In this document: positions 1 to 52,503 of the stretch, piece after piece | Position numbering within the stretch: the stretch's first letter is position 1 | How the letters are laid out: each line of letters opens with the position of its first letter | Assembly (NCBI GenBank): GCA_904424815.1 | Contig: CAJGBI010000002.1 | Span: 62,001-126,000 of the forward strand | Source of the DNA: Puniceicoccaceae bacterium Marseille-Q1082 | GTDB lineage: Bacteria > Verrucomicrobiota > Verrucomicrobiia > Opitutales > Intestinicryptomonadaceae | DNA length: 64,000 nt | Direction of reading: 5' to 3' | The notes under the pieces: model-generated | What the model saw: only the letters and a program-made list of their open reading frames with translations | The model's database searches: none | What the model was told of the DNA's origin: nothing | Translations under genes and position numbers: made by a program

Positions 1-241
1 TCTCTCATGGGAGGTTCGTTTTTTTGTTGGATAACGGATAACGGCGACTTTCGCGTATGTTTAATACGCTTCAACCCTTTGTTCGCTTGCGCCCCGTTTT
101 TAGCTCCAAAATCATTGCGCCAAATCGGGGAAGCTTAGGTTTGGGGAGAACGAACTCCGGAAGTGTTGACGAACCTCTCATGGGAGGTTTTTTGTGGGAA
201 TTGAAAATGGGATAGAAGCATTGGTGGAGCCAATCTTCACA
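1..241 (+). repeat. R1 repeat array, cut by the window edge, plus an R3 fragment
   Basis: Two R1 hairpins lie near positions 1-19 and 165-186: AACGAACCTC, loop TCATGG, GAGGTTCGTT, then a T run. The second has a shortened right arm. Between them is the R1 body, containing the motifs GCGTATGTTTAATACGC and GATTTGGCGCAATGATTTTG in reverse complement. Positions 205-241 match the reverse complement of the R3 element seen near 9545 and 16400. The T runs are on the plus strand here, so the array is inverted relative to those at 9.6 and 16.4 kb and would terminate transcripts entering from the left. Nothing coding is seen in 1-340. Confidence 0.8.
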
Positions 242-2498: not shown

Positions 2499-2611
2499 TA
2501 GCGTGCAATACGCAAAAAAGCCGCGGCCGAAGCGTACTTGGTGCGGCAAAAGCGCGGCTTACTCCAAAACATTTTTACTTTTGGGCGAAACTGCCGCTCA
2601 GTAGAGCGTTA

Positions 2612-2666
2612 AAAAGAGTCTGCCGGCGGGAGCGCACTGGCGCGCGCGACCCAAAGCAGACTCTTT
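2612..2666. terminator. Bidirectional terminator-like hairpin
   Basis: A perfect 12-bp stem AAAAGAGTCTGC (2612-2623) pairs with GCAGACTCTTTT (2655-2666), with a 31-nt GC-rich loop. The T run at one end of the stem and A run at the other allow use in both directions. It lies between the convergent GH127 and TPR genes. Confidence 0.6.
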
Positions 2667-2724
2667 TCAAACGGGGTGTCAGCGAAAATTTCGCGCAGCC
2701 CCGCGCCAAAGCGTTCGCCAAATC

Positions 2725-9122: not shown

Positions 9123-9211
9123 AAACAAACCTACCATAAGAGGTTCGTTAATCTTTCACTTTTTGTTTAAGAGAAAAGCAAGCTTCCCGATTTGGCGCAA
9201 TGAAAACGAAA
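9123..9211. repeat. Degenerate R1 unit
   Basis: A decayed copy of the R1 repeat: a hairpin-like stretch around ACCTACCATAAGAGGTTCGTT (9130-9152), followed by CGATTTGGCGCAATGA near 9189. It lies upstream of lptD in the long lptD-rplS gap. The remainder of 8924-9122 shows no gene. Confidence 0.55.
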
Positions 9212-9426: not shown

Positions 9427-9446
9427 GGATAAAGAGCGAGGGCGGG

Positions 9447-9580
9447 CGGCAGTGCCGCTTCCATAGAAGGAGACGGCAATACCGCTTCCATTGAAGGGGG
9501 CGGCAGTGCCGCTTCCATTGAAGGGGCTGACGCCCCTTACGAAGATTGGCTTCGCCAATGCTTCTATCCCCTCCCCGTTC
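9447..9580. repeat. R3 element: short tandem motif plus two hairpins
   Basis: Three imperfect copies of a motif of about 25-30 bp (GGCAGTGCCGCTTCCATTGA) are followed by GGGGC-TGAC-GCCCC and ATTGGC-TTC-GCCAAT hairpins, then CTTCTATCCCCT. The same block precedes the R1 array at 16.3 kb and occurs in fragments at 205-241 and 39.19 kb. Confidence 0.75.
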
Positions 9581-10299
9581 CCCACAAAAAACGAACCTCC
9601 CATGAGAGGTTCGTTAATACTTCCGGAGTTCGTTCTCCCCAAACCTAAGGTTCCAGATTTGGCGCAATGATTTTGGAGATAAAAACGGGGCGCAAGCGAA
9701 ACAAAGGGTCGAAGCGTATTGAACATACGCGAGAGTCGCCGTCATCCGTCCCCCACACAAAAAAACGAACCTCCCATGAGAGGTTCGTTAACACTTCCGG
9801 AGTTCGTTCCGAAAGCCAAGGGTATCCGATTTGGCGCAATGATTTTGGAACTAAAAACGGGGCGCAAGCGAAACAAAGGGTTGAAGCGTATTGGCATACG
9901 CGGAACTCAACAGTTATCCGTTCCCAACAAAAAACGAACCTCCCATGAGAGGTTCGTTAGCACTTCCGAAGTTCGTTCCGAAAACCAAGGGTATCCGATT
10001 TGGCGCAATGATTTTGGAGCTAAAAACGGGGCGCAAGCGAAACAAAGGGTCGAAGCGTATTAAACATACGCGAAAGTCGCCGTTATCCGTTCCCCACAAA
10101 AAAACGAACCTCCCATGAGAGATTCGTTAACACTTCCGGAGTTCGTTCTGAAAACCAAGGGTTCCAGATTTGGCGCAATGATTTTGGAGCTAAAAACGGG
10201 GCGCAAGCGAAACAAAGGGTCGAAGCGTATTGAACATACGCGAGAGTCTTTGTTATCGCGCAGCAACTCGTTTTTAGCCCAAAAGCATTCGCCAAATCA
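9581..10299 (-). repeat. R1 tandem array downstream of rplS (4 hairpin units plus terminal palindrome)
   Basis: Four units of about 170 bp, with stems AACGAACCTC/GAGGTTCGTT starting at 9590, 9764, 9933 and 10103 (spacings 174, 169 and 170). Read on the minus strand, each hairpin is followed by a T run, so each is a Rho-independent-type terminator for rplS transcripts. The array ends in an imperfect palindrome of about 130 nt (10169-10299). Its left arm starts GATTTGGCGCAATG, and its right arm is the reverse complement of TGATTTGGCGAATGC. The last three bases of the array are the rplS stop codon. Confidence 0.88.
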
Positions 10300-16287: not shown

Positions 16288-16328
16288 CACAGGACATCAA
16301 GACGCAAATAGGCGCAAGGCGCGCCAAG

Positions 16329-16435
16329 CGGCAGTGCCGATTCCATTGAGAGGGCGGCAGCGCCACTTCCATAGAAGGGGCTGACGCCCCTTACGAAGAT
16401 TGGCTTCGCCAATGCTTCTATCCCCTCCCGTCCCC
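16329..16435. repeat. R3 element, copy 2
   Basis: Two imperfect copies of the GGCAGTGCCG-type motif, followed by GGGGC-TGAC-GCCCC and ATTGGC-TTC-GCCAAT hairpins and CTTCTATCCCCT. It matches 9480-9580 closely and again precedes an R1 array. Confidence 0.75.
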
Positions 16436-16980
16436 CACAAAAAACGAACCTCCCATGAGAGGTTCGTCAACACTTCCGGAGTTCGTTCTCCCCAAACCTA
16501 AGCTTCACAGATTTGGCGCAATGATTTTGGAGATAAAAACGGGGCGCAAGCGAAACAAAGGGTTGATGCGTATTAAACATACGCGAAAGTCGCCGTTATC
16601 CGTTATCCAACAAAAAAACGAACCTCCCATGAGAGGTTCGCTAACACTTCCGGAGTTCGTTCCGAAAAACCAAGGATATCCGATTTGGCGCAATGATTTT
16701 GGAGCTAAAAACGGGGCGCAAGCGAAACAAAGGGTTGAAACGTATTGAACATACGCGAGAGTCGCCGTCATCCGTCCCCCACAAAAAACGAACCTCCCAT
16801 GAGAGGTTCGCTAACACTTCAGGAGTTCGTTCCGAAAACCGCAGGTTCCCGATTTGGCGCAATGATTTTGGAGCTAAAAACGGGGCGCAAGCGAAACAAA
16901 GGGTCGAAGCGTATTGAACATACGCGAGAGTCTTTGTTATCGCGCAGCAACTCGTTTTTAGCCCAAAAGCATTCGCCAAA

Positions 16981-16983
<3 letters not shown>
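16436..16983 (-). repeat. R1 tandem array downstream of gdhA (3 hairpin units plus terminal palindrome)
   Basis: Hairpin stems start at 16443, 16617 and 16787 (spacings 174 and 170), each with a minus-strand T run. The distal 131 bp, from GATTTGGCGCAATG to the gdhA stop, is identical to the end of the array at rplS. The array ends at 16983 with the gdhA TGA stop. Confidence 0.88.
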
Positions 16984-50797: not shown

Positions 50798-50874
50798 GGG
50801 GTGGTAGTTCAGTTGGTTAGAACGCCTGCCTGTCACGCAGGAGGTCGCGAGTTCGAGTCTCGTCCATCCCGCCA
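50798..50874 (+). tRNA. tRNA-Asp (anticodon GTC), CCA encoded
   Basis: A 77-nt cloverleaf. Acceptor GGGGTGG/CCATCCC (one G-T), anticodon stem CCTGC/GCAGG with GTC at 50832-50834, T arm with GTTCGAGTC, discriminator G and a genomically encoded CCA. The 170 bp upstream holds its promoter. Confidence 0.97.
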
Positions 50875-50880
50875 CTTGAA

Positions 50881-50913
50881 AAAAACGCAATCCGAAAGGG
50901 TTGCGTTTTTTTT
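50881..50913 (+). terminator. Terminator of tRNA-Asp
   Basis: AAAAACGCAA paired with TTGCGTTTTT around a CCGAAAGG-type loop, followed by further T. An ISL3 element begins at the very next base. Confidence 0.85.
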
Positions 50914-51204
50914 GGGTCAACACCAAAGGTTGTGGAATAGGTTGATTTTTTAGATTTGCCTTTCATAGATTCACCCCGCATTCCACGAGGACTCTCAGTC
51001 TGTAATTTTCAAAGTTTCTGTATCCATAGGCTCTGCGTTGTATCAACTTCATCTTGCGGTGGAAGCCCTCCGTTATTCCGTTATTTTTTGTAAATCTCCA
51101 CATTCTTATTATCGGCGCAAACCATTCGCTTATCGTTTCCGCAAGCTTCCCAAACTCTGTCGGCGCTTCGTATTTCATTATCTTCATCATTTCCTTTAAC
51201 TTTC

Positions 51205-52503
51205 GGGTCAATACCAAAGGTTGTGGAATAGGTTGATTTTTTAGATTTGCCTTTCATAGATTCACCCCGCATTCCACGAGGACTCTCAGTCTGTAATTTT
51301 CAAAGTTTCTGTATCCATAGGCTCTGCGTTGTATCAACTTCATCTTGCGGTGGAAGCCTTCCGTAATTCCGTTATTTTTTGTAAATCTCCACATTCTTAT
51401 TATCGGCGCAAACCATTCGCTTATCGTTTCCGCAAGCTTCCCAAACTCTGTCGGCGCTTCGTATTTCATTATCTTCATCATTTCCTTTAACTTTCTTATG
51501 TTATCCCTGCATTGCTTTGCCGTCTGACTCTTTTTATTCAATAGTCCGCATAATCGCTCCTTAAATTCGTACGCAAGCTCTATTGCCGGATTTCCCCTAA
51601 AAAAGCTTTTAAGCCGCTCCATCTCTTGCGCTTTTAGCCTCTCTCTCCTTTTCCGCAAAGGATAAGTAATCTTTCTCTTCCACTTTACTTCTTCCTGCGC
51701 ACTCTTGCAAAATTCCATAAAGTGGTTGAGCACTAATCGTATCACATGAAACCTATCCGCTACTATCTTCGCCCTCGGAAAACATCTCCTTACGATACTT
51801 CGATATCCGCTCGATAAATCCATGCACACTACCTTCACATTTTCCCTGCCTTTGTATGACATTAGCGCGCCTGCTATATCGCTATGTCTCTTCCCTTTAA
51901 TAACATCGTATACCCTGTGGTGCGATAAGTCGGCTATTGTCGTCGCAAACTTGTAACCCTTGTGGATTGTGTGTTCGTCTATCCCTATAATTTCAGGACA
52001 AGGATAGTTGATTTGCTCTTTGAGCTTTTGCTCGTACCTACTGTGGATTGCCCGCTCAACCGTGCTTGCAGATATGCGGTAAATCCGAGCAATAGCCTTA
52101 TTGCAAACGTTCCGAGCGTATTCACTTACGAGCCTGTTTTTGAACCTCTCCGAGTGACGAGCGTAAGGCCTTACTCCCTCAAGCCTTTCGCGAAAGACCC
52201 TTCCGCAATCGAGACACTTGTAACGCTTGCATTTTACCTTGAGATGATAAATAGCTCCGTTTTCAGAGACGTGCTTAATATAACGCCAGTAGGAATCGTA
52301 ATGAATCAAACGATGCGACCCACATAAGCAGTCGGGTATACCCGACTGCTTATGCTCAACTTCCGCAAGCGAAAAGTCTTGACTAACTCTTACCGTCCTG
52401 AGTATCTTATAACCCTTGATTAACACATTGGGCATTGTAGAACATTTTTTATTCTCTTTGCCCTCTTTTTTTTCTCTCATTCCACAATCTTTGACGTAGA
52501 GCG
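51205..52503 (-). mobile_element. ISL3-family element B, intact, with 8-bp target duplication
   Basis: 1299 bp, from GGGTCAATACCAAAGG to ...TTTGACGTAGAGCG. It is flanked by the direct repeat TAACTTTC (51197-51204 and 52504-52511). An 8-bp duplication is the value known for ISL3. It is inserted within the transposase gene of its sister copy, and the near-identity of the two shows recent transposition. Confidence 0.93.
51254..52480 (-). CDS. ISL3-family transposase (copy B)
   Basis: 408 residues, complete. An N-terminal zinc-ribbon pair (CLCGSHRL, YKCLDCGRVF), a helix-turn-helix around VSEYARNVCNKAIARIYRIS, and a DDE_Tnp_ISL3 catalytic domain: IIGIDEHTIHKG (first Asp), VVCMDLSSGYRSIV and IVADRFHVIRLV (second Asp region), NNGITEGFHRKMK (Glu). 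The ATG 52480 lies close to the right terminal repeat, as usual. It is the only intact transposase in the window and could mobilise the related copies. Confidence 0.93.
   Translation of the reverse strand: MREKKEGKENKKCSTMPNVLIKGYKILRTVRVSQDFSLAEVEHKQSGIPDCLCGSHRLIHYDSYWRYIKHVSENGAIYHLKVKCKRYKCLDCGRVFRERLEGVRPYARHSERFKNRLVSEYARNVCNKAIARIYRISASTVERAIHSRYEQKLKEQINYPCPEIIGIDEHTIHKGYKFATTIADLSHHRVYDVIKGKRHSDIAGALMSYKGRENVKVVCMDLSSGYRSIVRRCFPRAKIVADRFHVIRLVLNHFMEFCKSAQEEVKWKRKITYPLRKRRERLKAQEMERLKSFFRGNPAIELAYEFKERLCGLLNKKSQTAKQCRDNIRKLKEMMKIMKYEAPTEFGKLAETISEWFAPIIRMWRFTKNNGITEGFHRKMKLIQRRAYGYRNFENYRLRVLVECGVNL

Follow-up and report, generated by a model that had tools for sequence, protein, structure and literature searches.

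The window, i.e., the whole stretch of 64,000 nt that was analysed, carries rplS (L19) and gdhA (glutamate dehydrogenase), both identified by Pfam, and three tandem arrays of units of about 170 bp: array 1 at the left edge, array 2 at rplS and array 3 at gdhA. On its gene side, each array closes with a hairpin, about 130 nt long, that has its 5' base upon the stop codon. The features are as follows.

1 to 235, plus strand: end of array 1 with two terminator copies; the array runs left to a gene whose stop it abuts at G000:C2:61311.
2604 to 2724, minus strand: divergent hairpin-family member at the stop TAA (2725 to 2727) of a TPR-protein gene, with a partial model match at 2604 to 2673 and the gene-proximal arm at 2707 to 2724.
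9124 to 9149, minus strand: isolated degenerate terminator hairpin of the family (terminator scan).
9590 to 9615, minus strand: terminator hairpin, array 2 copy 1 (terminator scan).
9764 to 9789, minus strand: terminator hairpin, array 2 copy 2 (terminator scan).
9933 to 9958, minus strand: terminator hairpin, array 2 copy 3 (terminator scan).
10103 to 10128, minus strand: terminator hairpin, array 2 copy 4, rplS-proximal, with one stem change (terminator scan).
10167 to 10298, minus strand: rplS stop-codon hairpin, 132 nt, apex TCGCGTATGTTCAATACGCTTC; match to covariance model R1 at E=1.6e-27 (this copy is also in the model); folded.
10297 to 10299, minus strand: rplS stop TGA, with T from the gene and GA from the hairpin.
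16443 to 16468, minus strand: terminator hairpin, array 3 copy 1 (terminator scan).
16617 to 16642, minus strand: terminator hairpin, array 3 copy 2 (terminator scan).
16787 to 16812, minus strand: terminator hairpin, array 3 copy 3, gdhA-proximal (terminator scan).
16851 to 16982, minus strand: gdhA stop-codon hairpin, 132 nt; model match at E=1.6e-27 (this copy is also in the model); folded.
16981 to 16983, minus strand: gdhA stop TGA, with T from the gene and GA from the hairpin.

The units of about 170 bp, described in three arrays by the first-pass annotation, are real: Tandem Repeats Finder gave a period of 170 bp x 4.0 copies at 9575 to 10248 and of 172 bp x 3.0 copies at 16428 to 16932, and array 1 holds an inverted copy, with its T tract on the plus strand, in agreement with the inversion reported for that array relative to arrays 2 and 3. 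Positions 1 to 235 are the array end; the remainder extends leftward beyond the window (G000:C2:61310-62200). The count of at least nine hairpins stands for the seven in arrays 2 and 3 that the terminator scan listed; the two array 1 copies, near 1 to 27 and 168 to 193 (plus strand), were absent from the scan list and were read directly and seen as repeats. Listing by the scan alone is weak evidence, because 51 sites were found in 20 kb compared with 34 in shuffles. The seven stems in arrays 2 and 3 each have the form of an intrinsic terminator, i.e., a G+C-bearing stem-loop and then a U tract in the gene sense, and the T tracts at rplS and gdhA both run in the sense of the adjoining gene, as had been proposed.

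Read in the gene sense, the stop-codon hairpin is GATTTGGCGAATGCTTTTGG...CCAAAATCATTGCGCCAAATC. The internal 170-bp units comprise the terminator and part of the hairpin, and the complete hairpin is found only in the last unit. Hairpins of 127–132 nt fold at -55 to -92 kcal/mol. Pairing was assessed in an alignment of 33 hairpins (29 distinct), made up of 32 host copies with both arms and one copy from the relative G008: 96.0% of the cells were paired, compared with 82.4% when shuffled and at most 45.6% when slid. Changes on both sides occurred at 21 of 45 pairs against 17.2 in shuffles (0/500 as high), and the covariation score was 0.374 versus 0.137, a level reached by 0/500 shuffles; further standard pair types numbered 35 versus 42.1 in shuffles, i.e., fewer, which counts against covariation. 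The outer arms and the apex stem are nearly invariant, and the inner stem is variable yet still paired. Rfam covariance models at the gathering score detected only tRNAs in the window and in six element loci; matches to MIR1858, STnc40 and Leu_leader fell below threshold and were taken as chance.

Array 2, used as a BLAST query against the host genome (2,696,975 bases, 3 contigs), matched 72 places that fall into 39 loci. The 9-mer GAGGTTCGT occurs 149 times in this 2.7-Mb genome versus 9 for its reversed control; a reading of the 9-mer as a DNA-uptake sequence was rejected, the readable copies (among 100 of the 149 places) being tied to the repeat family. Terminator copies number 71 in 39 intergenic regions, and in 36/39 of these the T tract has the same sense as the gene that it adjoins, which bears out the orientation genome-wide. 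An alignment of 68 of the 71 copies gave column conservation of 0.92 for the A tract, 0.98 and 0.94 for the stem and 0.84 for the spacer. RNAalifold produced a meaningless fold of this alignment, which was discarded, and the stem columns were therefore counted directly; no covariation beyond shuffles was found in the terminator stem. In the 230 nt that follow each hairpin, a terminator-like site was present for 31/45, compared with 1/33 ordinary genes and 4/160 random stretches, and at other host loci the terminator module occurs singly or few-fold among further palindromic modules in long intergenic regions.

The T-tract stems would be expected to terminate transcription in vivo. The termination role suggested by the first-pass annotation is supported by the orientation, the stem conservation and the terminator sites behind hairpins; its emphasis upon terminators within amplifying repeats did not hold as the core of the family, because the conserved part is the long stop-codon hairpin, which is present in G018, a member of another genus, nearly without detectable terminators (a terminator-like site in 3/20 G018 hairpins; antisense 2/20). 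The accessible part of one report (PMC4824070) indicates that a terminator directly behind a gene works poorly, and better with distance; this may explain the spacer hairpin ahead of the terminator.

Several other repeats were seen. Short palindromic modules, GGCGGCAGTGCCGCTTCCATTGAAGG, GGGGCTGACGCCCCTTACG and AAGATTGGCTTCGCCAATGCTTCTATCCCC, occur at 9444 to 9568 and 16328 to 16435 of the window and at many host loci; a further module of more than 200 bp with GGATAAAATGCGTTGGCATTTTATTC joins the short palindromes in mosaics that fill convergent intergenic regions, and at L041 and L047 the mosaics reach from stop to stop. A 291-bp unit, present twice with 98% identity at 50910 to 51495, stands directly behind tRNA-Asp (50798 to 50874), and a stretch of about 30 nt from it (TTTCGGGTCAACACCAAAGGTTGTGGAATAG) is also present in G017 (L189), next to a family hairpin that comes after an apparent tRNA 3' end. 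Two of the three host contigs start in or beside elements (G000:C2:1-275, G000:C3:1-253); the assembly may have altered the number of copies per array.

We examined where the hairpins lie relative to genes. The gene-proximal arm was found in the host genome 45 times at up to 2 mismatches and 52 times at up to 3, versus 8 for the reversed control at up to 3; the 45 arm ends used below leave out the 7/52 right-arm matches with 3 mismatches. Based upon gene calls from our own hexamer-based caller, not annotation, opposing genes finish at 40/45 hairpin ends, with the stop at -27 to +14 nt, and 5/45 ends lie away from any sense stop. At 21 ends the stop is formed by T from the gene and GA (or AA) from the element; at 5 an intact TAA stands just ahead of the element; at 8 the gene reads eight codons into the hairpin and stops at TAG; at 3 there is read-through via a split codon and ATT to TGA; and 3 are single cases at gene 3' ends. 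A second measure beside the gene calls, requiring an ORF of at least 120 codons with its stop at -12 to +30, gave a sense stop at 39/45 ends versus 2/32 antisense and 136/4000 random positions. Genes bearing stop hairpins include, by eye, guaA, fabF, hisG, hisF and hemB. Background stop usage in five stretches was TAA 29, TGA 22 and TAG 14.

The element differs with the frame in which the gene enters it. The GATTTGACG variant, a G-to-A change by which the third frame gains a TGA, is present in 3/3 copies in that frame and 0/42 others (p=7e-5), and the TAG-supplying inner type is present in 8/8 eight-codon readers versus 9/21 T|GA copies (p=0.006). The eight-codon tails are DLANAFGE in six genes, DLANDFGE in one and ALANAFGE in one. 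As a result of the hairpin-arm coding, the unrelated proteins at L036, L041, L043, L052, L054, L067, L068 and L080 share a C-terminal LANAFGE (7) or LANDFGE (1).

Orthologues were tabulated at 45% identity or more with the match reaching near the C terminus. For the T|GA (or T|AA) class, 19/21 genes have an orthologue in G007, G008 or G009 (more relatives were used for rplS); 17/19 share the same last codon with the protein of at least one relative, and in 15/17 the relative's stop is TAA or TAG. Since the relatives' proteins end at the same codon, the element boundary falls inside the native stop, after its T. In the read-into classes the loss of native C-terminal residues ranges from none to about a dozen. 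The element is absent at most orthologous genes of the three relatives, the hairpin model matching 2/81 orthologue loci, weakly: in the G008 orthologue of the L048 gene the match begins 33 nt behind the stop, and the match at the L171 orthologue locus is partial and away from any long ORF's stop. At pilC, read by eye, the host has a decayed hairpin and an intact terminator stem at the TGA, and in G008 the hairpin is intact, with another terminator behind it; the two may go back to one old insertion in common or to separate insertions.

Related hairpins stand at stops in other genera. Covariance model R1 matched 12 of 36 genomes, host included, and 24 were without a match; at most 94 preliminary candidates per genome were scored, so that the counts, in which both strands of one hairpin are included, are lower bounds: at least 61 in the host, 68 in G018, 60 in G030, 56 in G033, 20 in G008, 8 in G017, 4 in G015, 2 in G002, and at least 1 each in G003, G012, G023 and G027. 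A sense stop at -12 to +30 was found for 32/64 inspected R1 matches, versus 1/64 antisense, and for 32/37 of those with a 120-codon ORF; the 64 were chosen as the top-scoring fetched loci rather than at random, and include only part of the 68 G018 matches. They come from 81 rows, leaving out 6 antisense duplicates, 9 partial matches and 2 low-scoring full matches. A further hairpin family of the host differs in its outer arms (TAGGGCGCG...); one copy begins with its gene's TAG stop, another supplies the TGA of a threonyl-tRNA-synthetase-like gene (thrS, by eye), and three start 9–10 nt downstream of the first base of the stop codon. At L115, L124, L128 and L131 of G008 a separate short palindromic repeat (GGCGAAGCCCTTGACGCCCGAACTTCGTTCGGGAG and variants) was observed close behind stop codons.

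Across genomes the outer arms differ and the apex is related, with loops of 3–7 nt. The apex is UCRCGUAY-loop-RUACGCY, or nearly so, in the host, G030, G033, G012, G003 and some G008 and G015 members, and variants occur in G018, G017, G002, G023, G027 and the remaining G008 and G015 members. The exact apex pattern, a narrow one for which zero elsewhere is compatible with variants, was present in 7/273 genomes of the order: 16 in the host, 16 in G009, 182 in G030, 106 in G033 and one each in G008, G015 and G018. The 182 motifs in G030, a 1.3-Mb genome, were the highest count seen. Free folding gave poor hairpin limits in G030, G033 and G009 (stop at -15 to +30 in 4/10, 2/8 and 0/0, respectively, with an upstream ORF), and the apex-to-stop distance was therefore used instead. 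A stop lay 45–90 nt before the apex in 5/19 cases for G030 (antisense 1/19, random 65/1200) and 2/10 for G033 (antisense 1/10, random 25/800), from which the stop rule looks looser in these two genomes; for the host the same distance was found at 23/57 apexes (antisense 6/57), the read-through classes being nearer, and in G009 10/10 apexes viewed were 144–154 nt from the stop.

The elements of G009 are a long version, about 199 nt, whose two arms are a terminator-like hairpin and an apex hairpin; the inverted ends, TAAAACGTGCGAGA...TCTCGCACGTTTTA, include a TAA. By hand count, 21/28 terminal inverted repeat (TIR) pairs reach with one end into the TAA stop (-2 to -6) of an ORF 200 codons long or longer, and several of the remaining 7 are second tandem copies. 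The terminator-like site was found in sense in 15/15 elements and antisense in 1/15, these 15 coming from 16 hand-chosen loci. Many G009 elements, and only these, are flush with TA at both ends. The genes at L283, L284, L290, L291, L293, L295, L298, L302 and L303 end in FVAYRRRK or FIAYRRRK and are PEP-CTERM-like by eye. Because many of the G009 genes that carry these elements are such PEP-CTERM-like paralogues, they are not all independent, and gene-family duplication may have copied elements along. Neither of two long-spaced TIR pairs was accepted as a mobiliser: L288, with HTH- and ParB-like proteins and a Mu-type-transposase-like ORF, and L287, with an ordinary metabolic-looking gene (both by eye).

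We think it rather probable that the arrays are part of a dispersed, MITE-like family of gene-end elements, present in several Opitutales bacteria and seated on gene stops. In the mRNA sense, the host element comprises two nt that complete the stop (T|GA) and a hairpin that is imperfect, about 130 nt long and conserved at its apex; a short spacer containing GAACGAACTC then leads to a predicted intrinsic terminator. It would have spread to about 40 host genes, onto their stop codons, with replacement of the native stop and 3' end. Array growth would have copied a 170-bp piece composed of the terminator and the distal hairpin part, so that one complete hairpin stays beside the gene while spare terminators accumulate behind it. 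The spread may have occurred by transposition in trans, and the apex may be recognised by a protein. Stop codons may be targeted, or may merely be where copies survive, and we entertain both.

Survival through selection, rather than targeting, has in our judgement a little less than an even chance. Insertion would be broad, copies in genes and promoters would be purged, and a hairpin at the stop would help by blocking 3' exonucleases or by slowing or rescuing terminating ribosomes. The accessible text of PMC12306157, citing Liang et al. 2015, states that REPs of E. coli lower translation when they lie 15 nt or less from a stop, which speaks for this reading, as do the presence of a nearby stop in copies of each frame and the intact terminator stem kept by the decayed host pilC copy. 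Plain purging, however, predicts many copies deeper in the intergenic regions, which are 122–1880 nt with the element included, yet for 28/45 hairpins the distance to the stop is 2 nt or less, and translation runs into another 11.

The hairpin could instead be a cis-acting 3' UTR RNA, bound by a protein or RNase and copied via recombination rather than by a transposase; this is possible, but we consider it rather unlikely. The gene-sense strand is the better-scoring strand, the apex stem is conserved, and the loop of variable length (3–7 nt) does not fit a duplex DNA site of fixed spacing. Against an RNA role, the terminator of G009 elements is upstream of the apex hairpin, so that the apex would be mostly untranscribed, which favours a DNA-level role for the apex.

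A mobiliser was sought by domain. No Y1_Tnp (RAYT) protein was found in the host or in 12 other same-genus genomes; DDE_3, the transposase domain related to MITEs of the ERIC or IS630 type, was found in none of the host, G008, G009, G018 and G030, and once in G033. Inspection of the host elements by eye showed no clean target duplication. A REP/BIME system with a RAYT (TnpA-REP) transposase behind it would account for mosaic palindromic repeats at gene ends, and GTAG REPs are able to supply a TAG stop, as far as the accessible text of PMC3733652 goes. We disfavour it as very improbable, the elements being about 130–200 nt, not 20–40, the GTAG end being absent, and Y1_Tnp being absent from 13/13 same-genus genomes, host included. 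Integron attC sites have core ends RYYYAAC ... GTTRRRY. The hairpins resemble integron-like attC recombination sites behind genes in being imperfect, with conserved internal loops, directly behind the stop codon; these core ends are absent from the hairpins read by eye, and the genes include core rplS and gdhA, not cassettes, leaving this reading scarcely credible. That these are ordinary rplS and gdhA terminators amplified by slippage, the minimal case, would fit the 170-bp tandem copies and conserved stems, and is refuted by the genome-wide distribution, in which 39 intergenic regions share the module, mostly with the structured stop-codon hairpin, so that almost no weight is left to it.

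Beyond a gene-end element family, we offer as a speculation, which we regard as doubtful, that these hairpin elements, related at the apex and unlike in their outer arms, make up a mobile DNA class of a new kind that recognises stop codons, or is brought to them, and inserts there in one orientation in several Opitutales genera and families, rebuilding the stop in the frame that it meets and in some lineages carrying a terminator, i.e., portable gene ends. Core genes, namely rplS and gdhA (Pfam) and guaA and thrS (by eye), have stops that a repeat of constant orientation, with frame-specific adjustments, either makes or directly borders; in the host genome and G009 this repeat also carries a terminator. 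If the elements target stops, the insertion mechanism would be of a new kind; if selection placed them, a hairpin at the stop would generally affect the end of translation or mRNA decay. Either way this is a clear, testable system.

Most published accounts place mobile palindromes between genes. The literature consulted, largely papers outside subscription, gave no published element arranged in this way. Among the nearest known systems are GTAG- or CGTC-tagged REPs and BIMEs with RAYT, which are also dispersed palindromes near gene ends and in mosaics; the portions of PMC3733652 available report that GTAG REP termini often give a TAG stop and that Opitutus terrae (Verrucomicrobia) is rich in GTAG/CGTC REPs. 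The present elements differ in length (112–134 nt, mostly 127–132, and 199 in G009), in a related apex, in a stop that is mostly T|GA, in a single orientation, in ends GATTTGGCG/CGCCAAATC without GTAG, and in occurring without Y1_Tnp in the same-genus genomes searched. ERIC/RU-1 elements are palindromes of about 127 bp with inverted ends which, in the accessible part of PMC2759123, can remove the normal stop and extend the protein. In contrast, the stop position is the rule here, a terminator is attached, and no TA duplication was seen at host elements; the TA...TA ends of G009 elements do resemble MITEs of the ERIC/RU-1 type. YPAL/RU-2 of Yersinia prefers sites behind stop codons, and to our knowledge has no conserved apex family or terminator of its own. 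As described in the available sections of PMC2229807, its palindromes of about 168 bp might affect the stability of the upstream transcript, make duplications of 3–26 bp, and have targets at or beside dyads; by these duplications and dyad targets it is set apart from the stop-codon hairpins. QMITE2 at the 3' end of enhC in Coxiella burnetii supplies 33 C-terminal residues, with the stop after it, and is one case in the accessible text (PMC5896051), versus 40/45 hairpin ends at gene 3' ends here. Lastly, the stop-proximal REPs of E. coli (15 nt or less away) are alike in placing a hairpin near the stop with an effect on translation, as far as PMC12306157 is accessible; those are short, whereas the hairpins described here are long and supply the stop.
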